The position numbers were made by a program, and so were the translations under genes. From the IMG/VR virus record IMGVR_UViG_3300002141_000013, positions 1-21,311 of that record: 21,311 nucleotides of DNA; one strand, given 5' to 3'. Positions 518 through 17,232 of this stretch are shown here, piece by piece. The DNA is from a virus. The notes beneath the pieces are model-generated. The model had not been told where the DNA came from and ran no database searches. It worked only from the letters and a program-made list of their open reading frames with translations. The first letter of the stretch is position 1. Each line of letters starts with the position of its first letter.

Positions 518-1177
518 ATGACAGACTTAAAATTAAACAATGAAATCGTTAATTCGGAGGTTTATTTAGAAGATTGTGTAAAGGCATTAAAACGCTATGC
601 AGATAACTATTTTGACTTGGCAATAGTTGACCCGCCTTATGGGATTGCACGATTTGGAAATAGGGTAGAATTAAGCAATAGATTATGTAATAGTGCTAAA
701 TTAAACACTTGGGATATAAAGCCAACTAAGGAATATTTTACCGAATTATTTAGAGTTTCAAAACAACAAATAATTTGGGGTGCAAATAACTTTGAATTAC
801 CAACAACAGAATATTTTATAGTTTGGGATAAAGAACAAACAGTTGACAATTTTGCAAGTGCTGAATATGCTTGGACTAACGTAAAAAAACCTGCTAAAAT
901 ATGCAAACATTCAATTCATAAAGTTATGGCAACAAGAAAAGCGGATGGCGGTAAAATACACCCAACACAAAAACCAGTTTATTTATATGATTGGCTTTTA
1001 CAAAACTATGCTGAAAGCGGAATGAAAATTTTAGACACCCATTTAGGAAGTGGAAGCAGTAGGATTGCAGCGTATAAAGGCGGGTTCAACTTTGTAGGAT
1101 TTGAAATAGATAATGATTACTTCAATGCACAGGAGAAAAGATTTAACGAATTTAAAAGTCAATTACGGTTATTTTAA
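518..1177 (+). CDS. DNA adenine-N6 methyltransferase (stand-alone)
   Basis: The 219-residue protein has DPPYG at residues 38-42 (catalytic motif IV of amino-methyltransferases) and DTHLGSGSS near residues 173-181 (the FxGxG SAM-binding motif I). This motif order, catalytic before SAM-binding, is that of the beta class. HPTQKP lies between them, as in many phage adenine methyltransferases. It is small but looks complete. No restriction endonuclease gene is adjacent, so it is most simply an orphan phage methyltransferase that modifies phage DNA, perhaps against host restriction. The gene looks more AT-rich than the glycosyltransferase genes around it, with more TTA, ATA and AAA codons, which suggests separate acquisition. 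The start ATG at 518 follows an A-rich leader. The target sequence cannot be predicted. Confidence 0.88.
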   Translation: MTDLKLNNEIVNSEVYLEDCVKALKRYADNYFDLAIVDPPYGIARFGNRVELSNRLCNSAKLNTWDIKPTKEYFTELFRVSKQQIIWGANNFELPTTEYFIVWDKEQTVDNFASAEYAWTNVKKPAKICKHSIHKVMATRKADGGKIHPTQKPVYLYDWLLQNYAESGMKILDTHLGSGSSRIAAYKGGFNFVGFEIDNDYFNAQEKRFNEFKSQLRLF

Positions 1178-4655: not shown

Positions 4656-4906
4656 GGTTTTTAATAATTAAAAATACTATGAAATTAAGAGATGACCAGT
4701 ACCAACAATTAGTAAATCACAGGGGAGTGATCAAGATGGTAGCAGAGCAGAAACTAAACGTAAGCAATTCACCACACGACACAATGGCGAGGGTGTGGAT
4801 GCAACTTGGACAAGCACCAGTCAACACCAACTGCAATGCGTGTGTCCTTCAACTTTATGCAGACATAAACAATCTAATGATACAATACGAGAATGGCACA
4901 GATTAA
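4652..4906 (+). CDS. Small conserved phage protein of unknown function
   Basis: The ATG at 4652 overlaps the previous stop (ATGA) and gives 84 residues; an in-frame ATG at 4679 would give 75. I do not recognise a function. The N-terminal half is charged and helical-looking. The C-terminal 39 residues contain APVNTNCNACVLQLYADIN and are repeated exactly at protein level in the ORF ending at 6630. Over that stretch all DNA differences between the copies are synonymous (for example CTT/TTA Leu, GTC/GTG Val), which shows it is a real protein-coding sequence under selection. It overlaps the next small gene by 14 bp. Confidence 0.6.
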   Translation: MRFLIIKNTMKLRDDQYQQLVNHRGVIKMVAEQKLNVSNSPHDTMARVWMQLGQAPVNTNCNACVLQLYADINNLMIQYENGTD

Positions 4907-5012
4907 AGCAACGACAACAAAAAAGAACTTCGGTGTGCGTAAAAAGGGCAGGGCGAAGAAGTCAAAGAACAAACATTGTAGAAAGACAAAACAAACAAGA
5001 GGACAAGGATGA
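4893..5012 (+). CDS. 39-residue Lys/Arg-rich basic protein (copy 1)
   Basis: A short ORF from ATG 4893 to TGA 5012 encodes a very basic peptide containing KNFGVRKKGRAKKSKNK and a single His-Cys pair. Its stop overlaps the ATG of the ParB-like gene (ATGA). The second copy at 6617-6736 encodes an identical protein although eight bases in seven codons differ, all synonymous. That pattern is strong evidence of a real gene. The composition suggests nucleic-acid binding or condensation, but no domain is recognised. It sits just before the ParB/methyltransferase and terminase genes, consistent with a DNA-handling role. Confidence 0.7.
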   Translation: MAQIKATTTKKNFGVRKKGRAKKSKNKHCRKTKQTRGQG

Positions 5013-6148
5013 AAATAGTTAAGGTAAAGATTTCAGAGATAAAGCTCAACGAATCAAATCCACGATTCATCAAGGATGACAAGTTTAAGAAGTTGGTGAA
5101 GTCAATCAAAGACCTACCACAAATGCTTGACATCAGACCTATCGTAGTCAACAAAGACATGATGGTGCTTGGTGGTAATATGAGATTGAAAGCATGTGTT
5201 GAAGCAGGACTGGTTGAAGTGCCGATAATCATTGCCGATAATTTAACAAAGGAACAGGAGAAGGAGTTCCTGATAAAAGACAATGTCGGATTTGGGGAAT
5301 GGGATTGGGATATTATCGCAAACGAGTGGAATGAGGTTGAGTTGATAGAGTGGGGGTTGGAGATTCCTTTGGACTTCCAAACAGAACTTGAAGCAGAGGA
5401 AGATGACTTTGATGTTCCAGCAGATGGAATTGAAACCGACATAGTATTAGGGGATTTGTTTGAGATAGGAGAACATAGATTGCTTTGTGGAGATTCAACA
5501 GATAGCGATTCTGTTGCAAAGCTAATGGATGGTCAAAAAGCGGATATGGTGTTTACTGACCCACCTTATGGTGTAGATTACGAAGGTATAAACAATGACG
5601 ATAGAAAAGGATTAGAGGAATTGTTAAGAGGTGCTTTTGGCAATATGATGGTAAGCACTAATAATGGAGGTTCTTTTTATTGTTTCCATTCAGATAAGTG
5701 TTCCGACATTTTTAGTAAAGTTTATCGAGAGTTTTGTCACTTTTCTTCAATGATTATTTGGGTAAAAGAAAGCATAGTATTAAGTCAAACAGATTATCAA
5801 TCTAAACACGAACCTTGTATGTATGGTTGGTTTGATAATGGAACTCATAAATGGTATTCAGACAGAAAACAAGAAAGTGTATGGATTGCTAAAAGCAAAA
5901 GAGAAGAAGGTCACACAACGCCAAAACCAATTGATATAATTACTAAGGCATTAAATAATTCAAGTAAAACAAACCATTTAATACTTGATTTATTTTTAGG
6001 CAGTGGTTCAACAATGGTAGCATCCCACCAACTCAACCGCAAATGTTACGGAATGGAATTAGACCCAAAGTATTGCCAAGTGATTATTGACAGAATGAAG
6101 AAGTTGGATAGCACATTAGTTATTAAAAGAAACGGAATAAATATATGA
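5009..6148 (+). CDS. ParB-like domain fused to a DNA adenine methyltransferase
   Basis: This 379-residue two-domain protein starts at an ATGA overlap. Residues 1-90 form a ParB/Srx-like domain with NESNPR at 14-19 and the GGNMR box at 55-59. After an acidic linker (about 121-145) comes a beta-class DNA methyltransferase with DPPYG at 184-188 and FLGSGST at 329-335. ParB-methylase fusions are common in phages and mobile elements. They are thought to methylate phage DNA, with the ParB-like part perhaps binding or sensing DNA or nucleotide. The methyltransferase core (about 5560-5990) looks more AT-rich than the flanks, which suggests that this segment was exchanged. The ParB part recurs at 6733-7167 with only three residue differences and no methylase. 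Its stop overlaps the next start. Confidence 0.88.
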   Translation: MKIVKVKISEIKLNESNPRFIKDDKFKKLVKSIKDLPQMLDIRPIVVNKDMMVLGGNMRLKACVEAGLVEVPIIIADNLTKEQEKEFLIKDNVGFGEWDWDIIANEWNEVELIEWGLEIPLDFQTELEAEEDDFDVPADGIETDIVLGDLFEIGEHRLLCGDSTDSDSVAKLMDGQKADMVFTDPPYGVDYEGINNDDRKGLEELLRGAFGNMMVSTNNGGSFYCFHSDKCSDIFSKVYREFCHFSSMIIWVKESIVLSQTDYQSKHEPCMYGWFDNGTHKWYSDRKQESVWIAKSKREEGHTTPKPIDIITKALNNSSKTNHLILDLFLGSGSTMVASHQLNRKCYGMELDPKYCQVIIDRMKKLDSTLVIKRNGINI

Positions 6149-6630
6149 GCAACATAACGAAAACGAACACTATAAAGGAGCTTGATTTGAGGCAGTTGGC
6201 AATGGTTGAGGCATTAGAGAAACATCTTGGCATCGTCACTACTGCTTGTAGGCAAGTTGACATCGCAAGGACAACGCATTACGAATGGCTCAAAACAAAT
6301 AAGGCATACAGAAAGCTGTGCAACGACATCGACAATGTAGCACTTGACTTTGCTGAATCTTGTCTGCACAAACAGATAGCAAAGGGCAATCCATTGTCAA
6401 CAATATTCTACCTTAAATGCAAGGCAAAGAAGCGAGGGTACATTGAGCAAAGCACGATAGAGATAAAAGGTAACATGAAATTCAGAGCAGACTTTGGCAC
6501 AAGCAATCTTATAAGGGTGTGGATGCAGTTAGGACAAGCACCAGTCAACACCAACTGCAATGCGTGTGTGTTGCAGCTTTATGCAGACATAAACAATTTA
6601 ATGATACAATACGAGAATGGCACAGATTAA
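6145..6630 (+). CDS. Small terminase-like protein, chimeric copy 1
   Basis: This 161-residue ORF starts at an ATGA overlap. Residues 1-123 look like a phage terminase small subunit. A helix-turn-helix segment (TACRQVDIARTTHYEWLK, about residues 33-50) is followed by a conserved helical region from KAYRK to GTSNLI. At base 6513/6514 the protein changes abruptly into the C-terminal 38 residues of the small protein encoded at 4652-4906. This is the junction of the tandem duplication. The other copy (7157-7603) continues differently after GTSNLI and is followed by the large terminase, so copy 1 is the abnormal one. Whether this fusion is functional, or exists in nature, is open. Confidence 0.7.
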   Translation: MSNITKTNTIKELDLRQLAMVEALEKHLGIVTTACRQVDIARTTHYEWLKTNKAYRKLCNDIDNVALDFAESCLHKQIAKGNPLSTIFYLKCKAKKRGYIEQSTIEIKGNMKFRADFGTSNLIRVWMQLGQAPVNTNCNACVLQLYADINNLMIQYENGTD

Positions 6631-6736
6631 AGCAACGACAACAAAGAAGAATTTCGGTGTGCGTAAAAAGGGCAGGGCGAAGAAGTCTAAAAATAAACAT
6701 TGTCGCAAGACAAAACAAACAAGGGGACAAGGATGA
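6617..6736 (+). CDS. 39-residue Lys/Arg-rich basic protein (copy 2)
   Basis: This copy is the same length as the gene at 4893-5012 and encodes the identical protein with eight synonymous base changes. It overlaps the end of the chimeric ORF before it by 14 bp and the ATG of the ParB-like gene after it (ATGA), exactly as copy 1 does with its own neighbours. The conserved spacing places it in the duplicated block, with an offset of 1724 bp. Confidence 0.7.
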   Translation: MAQIKATTTKKNFGVRKKGRAKKSKNKHCRKTKQTRGQG

Positions 6737-7167
6737 ATATAGTTAAGGTAAAAATATCAGAGATAAAGCTCAACGAATCAAATCCACGATTCATCAAGGA
6801 TGACAAGTTTAAGAAGTTGGTGAAGTCAATCAAAGACCTACCACAGATGCTTGACATCAGACCTATCGTAGTCAACAAAGATATGATGGTACTTGGTGGT
6901 AATATGCGATTGAAAGCATGTGTTGAAGCAGGACTGATTGAAGTGCCGATTATCATTGCCGATAACTTAACAAAGGAACAAGAGAAAGAATTTCTAATTA
7001 AAGACAATGTTGGATTTGGTGAATGGGATTGGGATATGATTGCAAACGAGTGGAATGAGGTTGAGTTAATAGAGTGGGGATTGGAGATTCCAAACTTTGA
7101 CAGCGAAGTAGAAAGTGAAGAAAAAGAAGGACAAGAAACCGATAAATGTATAGTTTGTGGCAAATAA
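6733..7167 (+). CDS. ParB-like domain protein without methyltransferase (copy 2)
   Basis: The start at ATG 6733 matches copy 1; an in-frame upstream ATG at 6700 is rejected because it lies inside the small basic gene and has no counterpart in copy 1. The 144-residue protein is the ParB/Srx-like domain alone. It has GGNMR at 55-59 and differs from copy 1 over the first 120 residues only at K2N, V69I and I102M. After the shared LEIP at about 117-120 it has a short acidic tail ending KCIVCGK instead of the methylase. It may be a natural ParB-only form found in some related phages. A DNA-binding or regulatory role is likely but unproven. Confidence 0.75.
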   Translation: MNIVKVKISEIKLNESNPRFIKDDKFKKLVKSIKDLPQMLDIRPIVVNKDMMVLGGNMRLKACVEAGLIEVPIIIADNLTKEQEKEFLIKDNVGFGEWDWDMIANEWNEVELIEWGLEIPNFDSEVESEEKEGQETDKCIVCGK

Positions 7168-7603
7168 ATTGACAGCAGACAACGTAGATGTTACTGTTAC
7201 ATCAACGGATAACTACACTATTATAGACACAGGCATAAATTTGCAACAACAGGCAATGGTTATGGCATTGGAGAAGTCATTGGGAATAATTACAGCAGCG
7301 TGTCGTGCAGTTGGCATTGATAGGACAACACATTATTCGTGGTTAAAGAAGAACAAGGCATACAGAAAGCTGTGCAACGACATCGACAACGTAGCACTTG
7401 ACTTCGCTGAATCTTGTCTGCACAAACAAATCGCAAAGGGCAATCCATTGTCAACAATCTTCTACCTTAAATGCAAGGCAAAGAAACGAGGGTACATTGA
7501 GCAAAGCACGATAGAGATTAAAGGTAACATGAAATTTAGAGCAGACTTTGGCACAAGCAATCTTATACAATCCCCATCCGAATCAACAGAAGATACACAA
7601 TAG
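7157..7603 (+). CDS. Terminase small subunit-like protein (copy 2, intact)
   Basis: The best start is GTG 7157, overlapping the ParB-like stop by 11 bp; no in-frame ATG exists before residue 30 or so. The 148-residue protein has a variable N-terminus, a helix-turn-helix segment (AACRAVGIDRTTHYSWLK, about residues 50-67) and a C-terminal helical region. From KAYRK to GTSNLI (about 71 residues) it is identical to copy 1 in protein, with about eight synonymous base differences, while the N-terminal part differs at many residues. Small terminases bind the packaging site through the N-terminal HTH and oligomerise through the C-terminal part. The position directly before the large terminase supports the call. 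Confidence 0.7.
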   Translation: MANKLTADNVDVTVTSTDNYTIIDTGINLQQQAMVMALEKSLGIITAACRAVGIDRTTHYSWLKKNKAYRKLCNDIDNVALDFAESCLHKQIAKGNPLSTIFYLKCKAKKRGYIEQSTIEIKGNMKFRADFGTSNLIQSPSESTEDTQ

Positions 7604-8756
7604 CATCAATGATGAAGATTACAAATACTATGTGATTTGTATCGGTAGGCAGTTTGGCAAAACAATGATGGCTACCAACCAGATGATGTATTGGGCATTG
7701 AACAATCCACGAAGCAAGATAGCGTGGGTAAGTCCTGTTTACAAACAGGCGAAGAAAGTATTTGCAGACACTTACAAAGCATTCATCAAAAGACCAGAGA
7801 TTTATAAGAACATCAACAAGGGTGATTTGATTGTCGAATATCGCAATGGCTCAACGATTCAATTCTTTTCATCCGAGAGGTACGACAACATTCGTGGTTA
7901 CACCTTTGACTATCTTATATGCGATGAGTTCGCATTCATGGATGCAGAGGCATGGACAGAGGTGCTACGAGCAACGGTGTTGGTGAAGGGCAAGAAGGTG
8001 ATATTGATAAGCACACCACGAGGTAAGAATCATTTCTATCACTTGCACCAATTAGATTCAGTCAATCCACAATACAAGTCATTTAGCATGTCATCCTACG
8101 ACAATCCAATGATTCAGAGATCAGAGATTGACGATGCAAAGCTCACACTACCTGAACACATCTTCAAGCAAGAGTACTTGGCTGAATTTCTTGATGGGGG
8201 TAGTGGTCTGTTCCTGCACATCAACTATTCAACACAGGTGGACACATCGCCAAAGTATTATGCAGGATTAGACTTGGGAAGGGCAGATGATTATACGGTC
8301 TTGACAATCTTTAACCAACAAGGTCAAATGGTGTTCGTTGATAGGTGGAGGCAAACGACATGGAGCAACATTGTAGCAGAGGTATGTAAGCACATCAACA
8401 CATACCAAGCATTCACGTTTGTCGAGGTCAACAGCATCGGTGATGCTATCTTTGAGCAGGTGCAGAAGGGTGTGATGCACAGGGATAGAATCTATCCATT
8501 CGTCACCACATCGAAGTCAAAGCAAGACATCATTGAAGCGTTGATTGTGGCTAACAACAATAAAGAGGTGCAGTTTTTACCAATAGATTGGCTACGCAAA
8601 GAATTTGAGGTGTTCACCTACGAGTACAATCCATCTTCCAAGTCAGTCAAGTATTCTGCACCATCAGGATTCCACGATGATGGTGTCATGGCTACTTGCA
8701 TTGCATACTACTCATTGAAGGCAAACAAGAATTCAGGCATCTACAATGTTAGGTGA
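7548..8756 (+). CDS. terL: Terminase large subunit
   Basis: This is the ATP-driven DNA packaging motor and nuclease. The 402-residue protein has Walker A GRQFGKT at residues 33-39, Walker B YLICDE at 122-127 and the coupling motif STPRG. The RNase-H-like nuclease has a first catalytic Asp in AGLDLGRADD (D242) and a late acidic pair in FHDDG (D377-D378). The frame opens at 7533 and the only ordinary start before Walker A is TTG 7548, giving a protein that begins MAQAILYNPHPNQQK, a normal N-terminus for this family. The start lies inside the small terminase gene (56 bp overlap). In the first duplicated copy the same TTG (6494) is followed by only five more codons before a TAA created at the junction. 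Confidence 0.95.
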   Translation: MAQAILYNPHPNQQKIHNSINDEDYKYYVICIGRQFGKTMMATNQMMYWALNNPRSKIAWVSPVYKQAKKVFADTYKAFIKRPEIYKNINKGDLIVEYRNGSTIQFFSSERYDNIRGYTFDYLICDEFAFMDAEAWTEVLRATVLVKGKKVILISTPRGKNHFYHLHQLDSVNPQYKSFSMSSYDNPMIQRSEIDDAKLTLPEHIFKQEYLAEFLDGGSGLFLHINYSTQVDTSPKYYAGLDLGRADDYTVLTIFNQQGQMVFVDRWRQTTWSNIVAEVCKHINTYQAFTFVEVNSIGDAIFEQVQKGVMHRDRIYPFVTTSKSKQDIIEALIVANNNKEVQFLPIDWLRKEFEVFTYEYNPSSKSVKYSAPSGFHDDGVMATCIAYYSLKANKNSGIYNVR

Positions 8757-11380: not shown

Positions 11381-14152
11381 ATGATAAGGTCAGAGCTTTA
11401 TATTAACAACATTCGTGTTGAACTGAATCAAGAGGTACAGGCATCTATCACCTACCAGATAGCAGACATCCGTATGCCTGACAAGAGGCAAGGCAGTTTC
11501 TCAAAGACTGTTTCATTGCCGGGAAGTCCTACAATCAACAACCTATTTACATCCATCTTTGACCTTAACACATCGGTGCAGACAAGTGGTGTCATTAACT
11601 TTGCTCCTGACTTCAATCCAAATCTCAAAGCATCATTCGTGCTGTTGGTGGAAGGCATTGAGCAGTTTCGTGGTTATATGAAGTTGCAGAACATCACACG
11701 CATACAAGACCAACTTCAACAGGTGATGTATGAGGTGAATCTGTTTGGTGATGTGGCGAGTATATTCGGAGTGATAGGGGATGCGAAGCTCAACGCATTA
11801 GATTTGAGTGCCTACGACCACACTTACAACAAGGCAACACAAATAGCAACATGGAACACAGCGAACATCAATGGTGCAGGGTATGTGTACCCAATGATTA
11901 ATTATGGGGGTATGGGTGTAACAAGTTGGGATGTGAATGATTTCTTTCCTGCTATTTATGTGAAGACATACATCGATGAGATATTTGATGCAGCAGGTTA
12001 TAGTTACACATCAACATTCTTTTCGTCATCTTACTTCAAACATTTAATTGTTCCATTCGCAGGTGATAAGTTAACGATAAGTGCGTTGACTGCCTACCAA
12101 AGAACATTCAAAGCAAACACAAGTGCATTGACAAGTGCTTATGCAGTTTTAGTTTACAATCCAATTTTGTACAACGCAGAAACACTTGATCCATTAAACC
12201 AGTTTAACACATCGACAGGAAAGTTCACCACAGCACAGCGTGGTTTCTATTCATTTTATTCAAGTGGTGTCAGCACATTTACAGCATTTGATGATATTGA
12301 ATACAGACCAAATGCGTTCTATGGATATTCTGCAAATGTAAAGGTTTATCGTTCTGCTGTGTTAATTGCAACGTATGGCATAGGAACTACTGCAACAGGT
12401 GGAGCAAATATAAGTCCGATAACACCAGCAGGAACATTGATTAAAACATTTACTTATCAAGGGTGGACACCTACCTTTGTTTGTGATGTGGGTGATGTGG
12501 TGCAGGTGGAAGTGCGTTCATCTTTTGCACCTACTGATATAAATCCATTAACAGGGTTGCCTGAAAGAGTTACGCAAACCATTTCAGCAAATTCAATTTT
12601 TTTAAATCAAATATCAAACACAGCAATAGTTGATGGTGCGAGTATAACTTTAAACGATACATTACCAATCGACATCAAGCAATCTGACTTCTTGATGTCA
12701 ATTATCAGAATGTTTAATCTATTTGTTGAAACGGACAAGAATGATTCCAACAATTTAATCATTGACACTTATGATTCATTCTATGGTGCAGGAACGACAC
12801 AAGATTGGAGCAAGTTACTTGATGTGTCAAAGCCAGTCATCATAACACCTATGGGTGCATTGGATGCGAGAAGGTACACAGTAAAGTACACGCAAGACAC
12901 AGACTTTTGGAACAAGAAATATTTTGATTCTTATGGTAAAACTTATGGTGAATATAATAAAGACATCACAAATGACTTCTTAAAGAATGAGAATAAGAAT
13001 GAGGTGATATTTGCACCTACACCATCGATAGGCACAACTGCTGTGGATAGAATCATTCCAGAGATTTATCAGTTAGATTCCACAGGACTGCAAACAAAAT
13101 TGCGTAGTAAATTAAGAATCTTATATTATGCAGGAGCAAAGAATACTGTGAATGGATTTACTTATACCAGTTATGTGACAGGCAGCTCATCAGAAATTTA
13201 CTATCCATATGCAAGTCACATTGATGACGCAATCACGCCAACCACAGACTTATCGTTCGGAGTGCCAAATGAAATCTACTATGTGAATCCATACGGACAG
13301 ACTTCGTACACTAACAACAATCTATTCAACCAATATCACAAGTTATTCATTGATGAAATCACAGATGTGAATTCAAAGATAGTGACTGCATTCTTTCGTT
13401 TACAGCCATTAGACATTCTTGTGTTGTCATTCAGAAACAAGATATACATTGATGGACAATACTATCGATTAAATAAAGTCATAGACTACAATCCATTAGT
13501 CGAGGGTGTGACAAAGTGCGAGTTGTTAAAGATAAAGAATGGAGTGCCATTTGTTGAAACAACAGCAGAGCTGACATTCACAAGTGGTGAAAAGTTAGGC
13601 ATCGACAAAGCTCCATCTGCACCAGACAATGTGGGTAGGGGTGATATAGCAGCATCGACAAACAATGTGACAGTAGGTCGTGATAATTACATCAGTCCAT
13701 CTGCACGATATACTCTGGTGAATGGTAGCAACAACTTCGTAGGCAATGATGCTGCGAGTATCAATATCTCTGCGAGTAGTGGTGTGAGTGTGTTGGGTGG
13801 CTTGACAAATGTTACTGTCATCAACACCAACGACATTGTTATTCGTGAATCAAACATCACCTACATCAATGGTGTGCGAATGAGTGGCAGCGACAATATA
13901 TACACAGCAAGTGCAAGTCAAACGATTTCAGCATTAGGAACATGGGAGTGTACATCACCAATGACATTGACATTAGATGTGACATTGTTTAACACAGGCG
14001 ATTCAATAAGGGTAAAGAATGTAGGTGGTGGTGCGACAGTTATCATTGATGGCGGTGGCATCTTGATAGATGGTAGTGCTACACAAACAATGGCTATTGC
14101 TTATGACACATTAGAAATTTATTACAACGGAACAGTTTATTTTATAAGATAA
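11381..14152 (+). CDS. Large tail hub/tail-tip structural protein with C-terminal beta-rich domain
   Basis: The 923-residue protein begins MIRSELYINNIRVELNQEV and continues with a DKRQGSFSKTVSLPGS segment. A similar opening (short beta strands, a Lys/Arg-x-Gly-x-Phe/Tyr-Ser-Lys-T box, then a PG) is found in structural proteins of many Bacteroidota phages thought to form the tail hub or baseplate. From about residue 750 the sequence becomes low in charge and rich in Gly, Ser, Thr, Asn and Val, ending with a SALGTWECTSPMTLTLDV and IIDGGGILIDGS type beta module typical of phage appendage tips. Residues 634-923 are duplicated in the following ORF. A role in host contact is plausible for the C-terminal part. 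Confidence 0.6.
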   Translation: MIRSELYINNIRVELNQEVQASITYQIADIRMPDKRQGSFSKTVSLPGSPTINNLFTSIFDLNTSVQTSGVINFAPDFNPNLKASFVLLVEGIEQFRGYMKLQNITRIQDQLQQVMYEVNLFGDVASIFGVIGDAKLNALDLSAYDHTYNKATQIATWNTANINGAGYVYPMINYGGMGVTSWDVNDFFPAIYVKTYIDEIFDAAGYSYTSTFFSSSYFKHLIVPFAGDKLTISALTAYQRTFKANTSALTSAYAVLVYNPILYNAETLDPLNQFNTSTGKFTTAQRGFYSFYSSGVSTFTAFDDIEYRPNAFYGYSANVKVYRSAVLIATYGIGTTATGGANISPITPAGTLIKTFTYQGWTPTFVCDVGDVVQVEVRSSFAPTDINPLTGLPERVTQTISANSIFLNQISNTAIVDGASITLNDTLPIDIKQSDFLMSIIRMFNLFVETDKNDSNNLIIDTYDSFYGAGTTQDWSKLLDVSKPVIITPMGALDARRYTVKYTQDTDFWNKKYFDSYGKTYGEYNKDITNDFLKNENKNEVIFAPTPSIGTTAVDRIIPEIYQLDSTGLQTKLRSKLRILYYAGAKNTVNGFTYTSYVTGSSSEIYYPYASHIDDAITPTTDLSFGVPNEIYYVNPYGQTSYTNNNLFNQYHKLFIDEITDVNSKIVTAFFRLQPLDILVLSFRNKIYIDGQYYRLNKVIDYNPLVEGVTKCELLKIKNGVPFVETTAELTFTSGEKLGIDKAPSAPDNVGRGDIAASTNNVTVGRDNYISPSARYTLVNGSNNFVGNDAASINISASSGVSVLGGLTNVTVINTNDIVIRESNITYINGVRMSGSDNIYTASASQTISALGTWECTSPMTLTLDVTLFNTGDSIRVKNVGGGATVIIDGGGILIDGSATQTMAIAYDTLEIYYNGTVYFIR

Positions 14153-14242
14153 GAAAATGGCAGACAAGTCAGTATCGATAGATTTAATTATCAAAAGTTC
14201 AGAGGCAGCATCTTCACTTAAAGAGGTGAAGCAATCTTTGAA
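13280..14242 (+). repeat. Tandem duplication 2, copy 1
   Basis: The block covers the C-terminal 290 codons of the large tail protein plus the first 86 bases or so of a tape measure gene. It aligns without any indel to 14244-15206 (offset 964). By eye there are roughly forty base differences, concentrated in the first half. Confidence 0.85.
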
Positions 14243-15116
14243 TTATGTGAATCCATACGGACAGACTTCATACACTAACAACAATCTATTCAACCAATAT
14301 CACAAGTTATTCATTGATGAAATCACAGATGTGAATTCAAAGATAGTGACTGCATTCTTTCGGTTACAGCCATTAGACATTCTTATTTTATCATTCAGAA
14401 ATAAGATTTATATTGATGGACAATATTACAGACTTAACAAAGTCATCGACTACAATCCATTGGTAGATGGTGTGACAAAGTGCGAGTTATTGAAGATAAA
14501 GAACGGAGTGCCATTTGTACAGACAACAAGAGAACTTACATTCACAAGTGGCGAGAAGTTAGGCATCGACAAAGCTCCATCTGCACCAGTCAATGTGGGT
14601 AGGGGTGACATAGCAGCATCGACAAATAATGTGACAGCAGGTCGTGATAATTACATCAGTCCATCGGCACGATACACCCTGGTGAATGGTAGCAACAACT
14701 TTGTAGGCAATGATGCTGCGAGTATTAATATCTCTGCGAGTAGTGGTGTGAGTGTGTTGGGTGGCTTGACAAATGTAACTGTCATCAACACCAACGACAT
14801 TGTTATTCGTGAATCAAACATCACCTACATCAATGGTGTGCGAATGAGTGGCAGCGACAATATATACACAGCAAGTGCAAGTCAAACGATTTCAGCATTA
14901 GGAACATGGGAGTGTACATCGCCAATGACATTGACATTAGATGTGACATTGTTTAACACAGGCGATTCAATAAGGGTAAAGAATGTAGGTGGTGGTGCGA
15001 CAGTTATCATTGATGGCGGTGGCATCTTGATAGATGGTAGTGCTACACAAACAATGGCTATTGCTTATGACACATTAGAAATTTATTACAACGGAACAGT
15101 TTATTTTATAAGATAA
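14157..15116 (+). CDS. Chimeric ORF: tape-measure N-terminus joined to a second copy of the tail C-terminal domain
   Basis: The first 28 residues (MADKSVSIDLIIKSS and on) are the N-terminus of the tape measure protein encoded at 15121. From residue 30 the protein equals residues 634-923 of the large tail protein. The DNA repeat is 964 bp with no indel. Most changed residues fall in the first half of the repeat: V/I, E/D, E/Q, A/R, D/V and V/A replacements. The last 400 bp or so are almost identical. The join lies within codon 14241-14243. The ORF could yield a free copy of the beta-rich domain, but it lacks any normal gene start of its own. It could equally be a chimera product. Confidence 0.6.
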   Translation: MADKSVSIDLIIKSSEAASSLKEVKQSLNYVNPYGQTSYTNNNLFNQYHKLFIDEITDVNSKIVTAFFRLQPLDILILSFRNKIYIDGQYYRLNKVIDYNPLVDGVTKCELLKIKNGVPFVQTTRELTFTSGEKLGIDKAPSAPVNVGRGDIAASTNNVTAGRDNYISPSARYTLVNGSNNFVGNDAASINISASSGVSVLGGLTNVTVINTNDIVIRESNITYINGVRMSGSDNIYTASASQTISALGTWECTSPMTLTLDVTLFNTGDSIRVKNVGGGATVIIDGGGILIDGSATQTMAIAYDTLEIYYNGTVYFIR

Positions 15117-15206
15117 GAAAATGGCAGACAAGTCAGTATCGATAGATTTAATCATTAAGAGTTCAGAGGCAGCATCTTCTTTAAAAGAGGTGAAGCAATC
15201 TTTGAA
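14244..15206 (+). repeat. Tandem duplication 2, copy 2
   Basis: This copy encodes the chimeric 319-residue ORF after its first 29 residues and runs into the intact tape measure gene. The join with copy 1 falls at codon 14241-14243. Both copies carry the same tape measure start with the same GAAAATGG leader, but with synonymous changes in the codons after it. Confidence 0.85.
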
Positions 15207-17232
15207 GGATATTAAAGATGAAATGATAAAGGCAGGGGAAGGCACACCTGCATTTAATAAATTAGCAGCAGCAGCAAGTGAGTTGAAGGACAAAGTTGAC
15301 GATGCAAACGATGCTATCAAAGCAACCAATCCAAACAAGTTTCAGGCATTAGCATCATTCGCAGCAAGTGCAGCAGGTGGCGTTAGTGCAGTTACAGGTG
15401 CTATGGGTTTGTTCGGTGCGCAGTCGGAGGAGGTGACAAAGACACTTGCAAAGGTGCAAAGTGCAATGGCATTAAGTCAGGGACTTGCATCGTTGAGTGA
15501 GATGCCGAAAGCATGGGCATCATTTAAGACATCTGCTGTAAGTGCGTTGAATGCTGTGAAAGCGGGAATAGGTGCGACAGGAATAGGATTGATTGTCATT
15601 GCGCTTGGAACTATCTATGCTTATTGGGATGATATCAAAGCTGTTGTAAGTGGTGTAAGCGAAGAGCAGAAGAAGTTAAATAAATTGAGTGATGAGAAAT
15701 TAAAGGGGAGTCAAAAAGAATTAGATGCGGTAAGCGGACAAGAAAATATATTAAAGTTACAAGGGAAAACAGAAAAAGAAATTTTGCAAATAAAGATTGC
15801 AAAGACAAACGAAACAATTAAAGATGCGGAGATTTCTATCTTACAGGCAGAGCAAACAAAGGCATCACAGATAGAGGCATCAAAAAGAAACAAGCAAATA
15901 TTAGAGGGAATAATAATGTTTGTCACAGCACCATTGCAATTATTAATGGGTGCTATTGACCTTGCAGGAAAAGCGTTTGGTCAAGACTTTGGGTTGAGAG
16001 AAGGTCTTACAAGTGCGGTTGCTAAATTTGTTTTTGATCCAGAGAAAGTTGAAAAGGATGCAAATGAATCTATCATAAAAGCAAAGGAAGGTCTTGCTAA
16101 ATTAAAGAACGATAAGGCAGGTTTTCAGTTAGCAATTAATGCAATAGACAAGACTGCAAACGACAAATCAATAGCAGACGCAAAAGCAAGTTCTGATGAA
16201 AAGATTAAAATAAAAGAAGATGAACTAAAAGCATTAAAAGAATTATCAAATAAGTCTGTCGATGAACAAATAAAGGCAGAGCAAGAAGAAGAAATAAGAT
16301 TAGCAAAAACTGCACAGGAAAGATTAAGAATTCTCTTTGAAAGAGATCAAGCAGAATTAATAGCATTAGGTAAAAAACACCTAACAGAAAGTCAGGAAGA
16401 TATTGATATTAGGAGTTCTGTGCAAACACGATTAAGGTTAAATCAAAGAAAATTCAATGATGAATTAGCGGCGTTAGACAAAACTGATAGAGAAAAGAAA
16501 TTTAACGAAATACTTTCTGATCAAGAGAAAATAATTACAGATTCGCAAACATCATTATCATTAAAGTTAGATGCATTAAATATTGAGAATGAGGCAATAA
16601 AATTAAATCAAGATTTAACTGACGAACAACGAGAAAAGAAAATACAAGAGAACGAAGATAGAAAAGTTGCAATAACCAAAGCAGCAAGACAAGCAGAAGC
16701 AAAGATTGCGATGGACTTGGCTGTCACTTCAATAGCAGGATTGCAAACTTTATCAGATTTGGCATTCGCATCTAAATTATCAAAGACAAAAAAGGGAAGC
16801 GAAGAAGAAGAAAAGTTGATGCGAAAACAATTTAAGGCAAACAAAGCATTGAATCTCTCAACTGCAATCATCAACGCAGCACAGGCACAACTTTCTATCT
16901 TGGCACAATATCCAAAGTTCGATGGTGGATTCGCAATGGTAGCAGCAATGGTTGGTGCAGGGATAACATCATTAGCATCTATTGCAAAAATAGCAGCAAC
17001 ACAATTTGACACTACAAGTGCAGGAGGCAATGAGCCACCACCAAGTTTAAACGCAGCAGCAGCGACAGCAACAAGCAATTCACAACCATCTACATTGCTC
17101 AATCCTGATGGAACGGTAGCTAACAACACAACACCAACACCAACACCGATACAAGTGTATGTGGTGGAATCAGATATTACATCGACACAGACACAGGTGG
17201 CGGTGGTACAAAATCAAATGAATTTTCACTAA
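15121..17232 (+). CDS. Tail tape measure protein
   Basis: The 703-residue, mostly helical protein has an Ala/Lys/Glu-rich coiled-coil body and hydrophobic segments at about residues 149-168 (GIGATGIGLIVIALGTIYAY), 264-285 and 600-625. This is typical of tape measure proteins, which set tail length and help DNA pass the cell envelope. The C-terminus has a Pro/Thr stretch and then IQVYVVESDITSTQTQV, an ending I recall from tape measures of Bacteroidota phages. The length is modest, so the tail should be fairly short if the usual length-to-tail relation holds. The first 28 residues are also present at 14157-14240. It follows the tail assembly chaperone by several genes. Confidence 0.85.
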   Translation: MADKSVSIDLIIKSSEAASSLKEVKQSLKDIKDEMIKAGEGTPAFNKLAAAASELKDKVDDANDAIKATNPNKFQALASFAASAAGGVSAVTGAMGLFGAQSEEVTKTLAKVQSAMALSQGLASLSEMPKAWASFKTSAVSALNAVKAGIGATGIGLIVIALGTIYAYWDDIKAVVSGVSEEQKKLNKLSDEKLKGSQKELDAVSGQENILKLQGKTEKEILQIKIAKTNETIKDAEISILQAEQTKASQIEASKRNKQILEGIIMFVTAPLQLLMGAIDLAGKAFGQDFGLREGLTSAVAKFVFDPEKVEKDANESIIKAKEGLAKLKNDKAGFQLAINAIDKTANDKSIADAKASSDEKIKIKEDELKALKELSNKSVDEQIKAEQEEEIRLAKTAQERLRILFERDQAELIALGKKHLTESQEDIDIRSSVQTRLRLNQRKFNDELAALDKTDREKKFNEILSDQEKIITDSQTSLSLKLDALNIENEAIKLNQDLTDEQREKKIQENEDRKVAITKAARQAEAKIAMDLAVTSIAGLQTLSDLAFASKLSKTKKGSEEEEKLMRKQFKANKALNLSTAIINAAQAQLSILAQYPKFDGGFAMVAAMVGAGITSLASIAKIAATQFDTTSAGGNEPPPSLNAAAATATSNSQPSTLLNPDGTVANNTTPTPTPIQVYVVESDITSTQTQVAVVQNQMNFH

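Follow-up and report, generated by a model that had tools for sequence, protein, structure and literature searches.

Two alleles of a ParB and small terminase locus joined in one phage contig, most likely as a chimera of co-existing strains

Introduction

A metagenomic contig can mimic a gene duplication that no phage has. The stretch of DNA analysed here, called the window, comprises positions 1 to 21,311 of IMG/VR record IMGVR_UViG_3300002141_000013, a length of 21,311 nucleotides. Its packaging region contains two versions of one gene block back to back, and the question that this locus raises is whether one phage encodes both versions or whether each belongs to a different strain. The features that bear on the answer are collected in Table 1.

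Table 1. Features of the two repeats and of the genes around them
Feature	Position	Strand	Evidence and remarks
Small gene upstream of the block, complete, 75 aa from an inner ATG	4679–4906	+	ORF list; single copy in relatives; 3′ 117 bp is the part repeated in copy 2
Block copy 1 (putative strain A version): small-gene 3′ end, 39-aa gene, ParB-methyltransferase, small terminase minus its last 11 codons	4790–6513	+
ParB_N fused to N6/N4 DNA methyltransferase, 379 aa, motifs TDPPYG and DLFLGSGST	5009–6148	+	PF02195 1.8e-6; PF01555 2.7e-26; PHROG 498 4.2e-114
Exchangeable central segment of the methyltransferase, about residues 187–326, putative target recognition	5548–5986	+
Hybrid ORF: small terminase (type A N-terminus) in frame over junction 1 into the C-terminus of the upstream small gene	6145–6630	+	161 aa
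Junction 1	6513–6514	.	No microhomology
Block copy 2 (putative strain B version): small-gene 3′ end, 39-aa gene, ParB alone, small terminase to the repeat edge	6514–7567	+
ParB-only protein, 144 aa, acidic tail	6733–7167	+	PF02195 3.4e-7; 95–98% identical in L005, L008/L165, L164, L166
Terminase small subunit, complete, type B N-terminus	7157–7603	+	PHROG 4044 7.7e-5 (weak); 93–94% identical in relatives
Terminase large subunit, overlapping the 3′ end of the small-subunit gene	7548–8756	+	PF03237 7.1e-20; PHROG 2 3.3e-50; 97–99% identical in 15 contigs
Tail repeat copy 1: 3′ part of a 923-aa gene and first 28 tape-measure codons	13280–14242	+	95.1% to copy 2
Junction 2, between ...KEVKQSL (tape-measure N-terminus) and ...YVNPYG (preceding gene)	14242–14244	.
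Tail repeat copy 2; with preceding bases gives hybrid ORF 14157–15116	14244–15206	+

The doubled packaging block

The two versions of the block, copy 1 and copy 2, follow each other directly, and the edges lie exactly at 6513/6514 and 7567, as had been claimed from the letters of the window. In the repeat search of the whole window, positions 4790–5367 match 6514–7091 ungapped at an offset of 1724 (93.4% over 578 bp), and 6198–6513 match 7252–7567 at an offset of 1054 (86.8% over 317 bp), with 95.8% identity in the last 214 bp. The claimed difference in content is also present: the Pfam domains ParB_N and N6_N4_Mtase are both found in copy 1, while copy 2 has ParB_N alone. Like the ParB-methyltransferases of PHROG 498, the copy 1 protein combines ParB_N with DPPY and FxGxG-like motifs.

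The original prediction also held that the order small gene, 39-aa gene, ParB-like gene and small terminase gene occurs twice. The repeat exists, but the upstream small gene is whole only ahead of copy 1, copy 2 having just its 3′ end, and the small terminase of copy 1 is incomplete: after ...GTSNLI its last 11 residues are gone and 39 residues of the upstream gene follow. The small genes ahead of the large terminase have weak small-terminase matches in PHROGs (PHROG 4044 and 4102; 7.7e-5 and 7.9e-5). As is typical of a terminase small subunit, the protein encoded directly 5′ of the large subunit is a small helix-turn-helix protein whose gene overlaps that of its partner, with weak family similarity. 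Near the left end of the window (518–1177), an ORF that stands alone resembles a DNA methyltransferase and contains the motif IVDPPYG.

A second junction in the tail region

The same contig contains a further diverged tandem repeat, absent from the original prediction, in the tail region (13280–14242/14244–15206, 963 bp, 95.1%). A repeat search limited to 13000–15400 yielded nothing beyond the whole-window result. At junction 2 the tape-measure gene breaks off after 28 codons and runs on into the interior of the gene that precedes it, which creates a hybrid tape-measure/tail ORF. Both junctions have 0–1 bp of microhomology, with overlaps of 1054 bp (the length of copy 2) and 964 bp, both create hybrid ORFs, and neither contains N. 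Both are also in frame, for which the chance expectation is about 1 in 9. More than one unexplained junction per contig is a mark of a chimera, and the second junction, being of like kind, points to chimeric construction.

Among about 240 other loci (1.78 Mb), no comparable direct repeat of at least 150 bp was found, the sole match, in L086, being an array with a 66-bp period. Two copies of a 6.2-kb segment, 98.1% identical and separated by about 32 kb, occur in contig IMGVR_UViG_3300024346_000136 (L208, L209; 44,117 bp), which may wrap around from one strain into another.

Copy number in related contigs

Fifteen viral contigs encode a large terminase 97–99% identical to that of the window, and the nearest contigs are mostly about 90–95% identical along its length. 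Nine records (L005, L006, L008, L010, L012, L014, L164, L166 and G001, the record of L016/L246) cover the whole packaging block, with the upstream gene at one end and the small terminase at the other, and each has one ParB and one full small terminase. The tail segment is likewise single-copy in all six relatives that span it (L004, L007, L011, L013, L015, L016). G001 (34,985 bp) is probably near complete: an exact-match test of an end overlap failed, but 25 bases of one end recur within the other, which suggests an overlap of about 135 bp. A second small-terminase-like match in L014 and L015 was considered as a natural duplication and rejected, because the match is a gene in its own right, for an HNH endonuclease whose N-terminus carries a similar helix-turn-helix.

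The ParB-methyltransferase form occurs once each in L006 and L014 and the ParB-only form once each in L005, L008, L164 and L166, so both alleles exist in separate contigs, which upholds the claim of two natural alleles of one locus. The further claim, that one phage encodes two small terminases and two ParB-like proteins, is not supported, since each relative carries one version only and the contig has a second junction of like kind. Strain-specific contigs with a single version each had been named from the start as the sign of an assembly product, and the related contigs are of exactly this type.

The junctions themselves were sought in 2.9 million viral contigs, with exact and degenerate queries for junction 1 and a degenerate query for junction 2; each search gave 0 matches, in a collection from which records very near the window may be hidden. 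The sign of a genuine duplication, the same junction in an independent contig, was therefore not seen in this set, and another assembly that shares it may have escaped notice because records nearly identical to the window can be hidden there. In the same set, 9 contigs contain the natural upstream flank of junction 1 and 15 its natural downstream flank.

Assemblies often end near the packaging locus, since the left end lies within 7078–7786 in eight of the 15 closest contigs, all of which were chosen for holding the large terminase. Such ends are as expected where co-present alleles tangle the assembly.

Divergence between the copies

The ParB copies differ by 19 synonymous codons and 3 amino-acid changes, and the gene copies of the tail repeat by 31 and 6, respectively. 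Differences that are nearly all synonymous match the pattern that would be seen between circulating strains. In two of three segment trees the window copies are grouped together with moderate support (89/96, 91/93), while in the small-terminase tree copy 2 is grouped with L014/L015 and not with copy 1. The trees were intended to show that the copies are not sisters, and in two of the three segments they failed to do so. A sister grouping fits in-lineage duplicates, and co-resident close strains would predict the same.

Origin of the joins

The contig most likely combines, as a chimera, pieces of two or more co-existing strains from a single phage group, a reading to which we give a probability of roughly 90%; the two versions are real, but their occurrence in tandem is most likely an artefact. 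At 6513/6514 the piece from strain A, with the ParB-methyltransferase allele, would end; the appended piece from strain B, with the ParB-only allele, would begin about 1 kb further upstream along the gene order that both share, the overlap being left unmerged. The same unmerged appending would account for the tail region at about 14242/14244. Two such joins in 21 kb, each with about 1 kb of overlap and 0–1 bp of microhomology, are consistent with strain pieces placed one after the other. The strains presumably shared one sample, and the joins would have arisen in assembly or library amplification, not in a living phage. The joins contain no N, and the exact step behind them may have been an assembler, a scaffolder or an amplification chimera. 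Each real phage would most likely have a single version, in which one small terminase stands beside a ParB-domain protein that may or may not include a methyltransferase; where present, the methyltransferase could shield phage DNA from host restriction.

An unequal, non-homologous crossover between co-infecting strains could instead have placed both alleles in tandem, a second event having duplicated the tail segment. Some room for such a recombinant is left by the fact that both junctions are in frame and by the two trees, of three, in which the copies are moderately supported sisters, and the sharpness of the junctions, the joins free of N and the intact ParB reading frame in each copy agree with it. 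It is nevertheless improbable, as it needs two independent rare events in 21 kb and is present in no spanning relative. The first small terminase is truncated and hybrid ORFs are created, and homologous recombination between the copies should tend to delete them. That a living phage holds both alleles through such a crossover and also expresses two ParB proteins and two small terminases is very improbable. An old tandem duplication within the lineage, followed by divergence and by gain or loss of the methyltransferase in one copy, would explain why two of the three trees join the copies, with moderate support. This history would have to keep the breakpoints gap-free and the hybrid reading frames open, and no relative shares it; moreover, each copy matches a separate natural allele, down to the matching small-terminase N-terminus, so that we regard it as extremely improbable. 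A chimera of strains remains the preferred reading, and its presumably false tandem is exposed without reads by the second junction in the contig together with the single-copy relatives.

The variable cassette

As read from the sequences, the real biology of the locus is a variable cassette that is located between ParB and the small terminase and has at least six forms in close relatives. This segment differs among phages whose large terminases are 97–99% identical. The ParB-methyltransferase has one central segment in window copy 1, another in L006/L007 and a third in L014. ParB stands alone in L005, L008, L164 and L166; in L015 the ParB-only tail is followed by an HNH gene, which is also found in L014. 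In L012, ParB is followed by a separate 192-aa gene with a sub-threshold methyltransferase match only, and a diverged ParB, 36% identical, is found in L010 and G001. The small-terminase N-termini are of two types: type A accompanies the methyltransferase forms of the window and L006/L007, as well as L012, while type B accompanies the ParB-only and HNH forms.

Residues 187–326 of the window methyltransferase are 14% identical to L006 and 28% to L014, while the long flanks are 81–97% identical. For L084, L085 and L086 the identity of this segment is 90–96%, against only 59–71% for the ParB domain. The swap among close relatives has sharp edges (window 5548–5986; L006 2400–2895; L014). This is the pattern that would be expected from specificity-segment exchange, and the central segment probably serves target recognition. 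The HNH endonuclease gene lies directly before the true small terminase and its N-terminus resembles the small-terminase helix-turn-helix (L014 1435–1929; L015 148–639). The 192-aa gene of L012 (7076–7654), between ParB and the small terminase, has a sub-threshold tRNA-methyltransferase match and may be an unrecognised methyltransferase.

The alleles outweigh the tandem in importance: at a single site by the packaging genes, close relatives swap small-terminase N-termini, an HNH nuclease and the putative specificity segments of methyltransferases. Allele exchange at this place probably serves evasion of changing host restriction.

Comparison with known systems

The phage collection holds no close isolate of this phage group, the top-ranked large-terminase match being 30% identical (Thermus phage phiFa). 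The sole match in a bacterial genome is a short contig in a Chitinophagaceae MAG (65%). The methyltransferases with a ParB domain in PHROG 498 have the same domain order as the copy 1 protein over nearly its full length, but the best phage record, from Streptococcus phage Javan486, is 38.6% identical. The known ParB-adenine methylase fusion, likened here by description, has the same domain fusion, and its ParB domain is reported to nick DNA non-specifically. Our literature search found no paper covering phage ParB, methyltransferase, small terminase and fusion together, and for tandem-duplication assembly artefacts in metagenomes it found only a tuberculosis reference-genome paper.

Chimeric virome contigs of co-existing related viruses resemble the window in combining two related genomes, and in the passages of PMC5610896 on such contigs they usually make up less than 2.5% of simulated virome assemblies and less than 5% of contigs of 10 kb or more. 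The joins in the window, in contrast, duplicate about 1 kb in tandem, at two places, a form that those passages on chimeric contigs do not describe.

Published examples exist of variable islands that combine ParB, terminase, methyltransferase and homing-endonuclease genes. Cryoconite phages have metagenomic islands with variable methyltransferases, homing endonucleases and terminases, with up to five variants co-present per metagenome, and contigs often break at such islands (PMC7468147). The variable region figured there holds ParB, TerS and TerL, and is like the present locus in its shifting methyltransferase and HNH content within otherwise like phages and in the contig breaks at that place. 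The cryoconite phages are other phages, whereas the group of the window exchanges the central segment of a ParB-fused methyltransferase.
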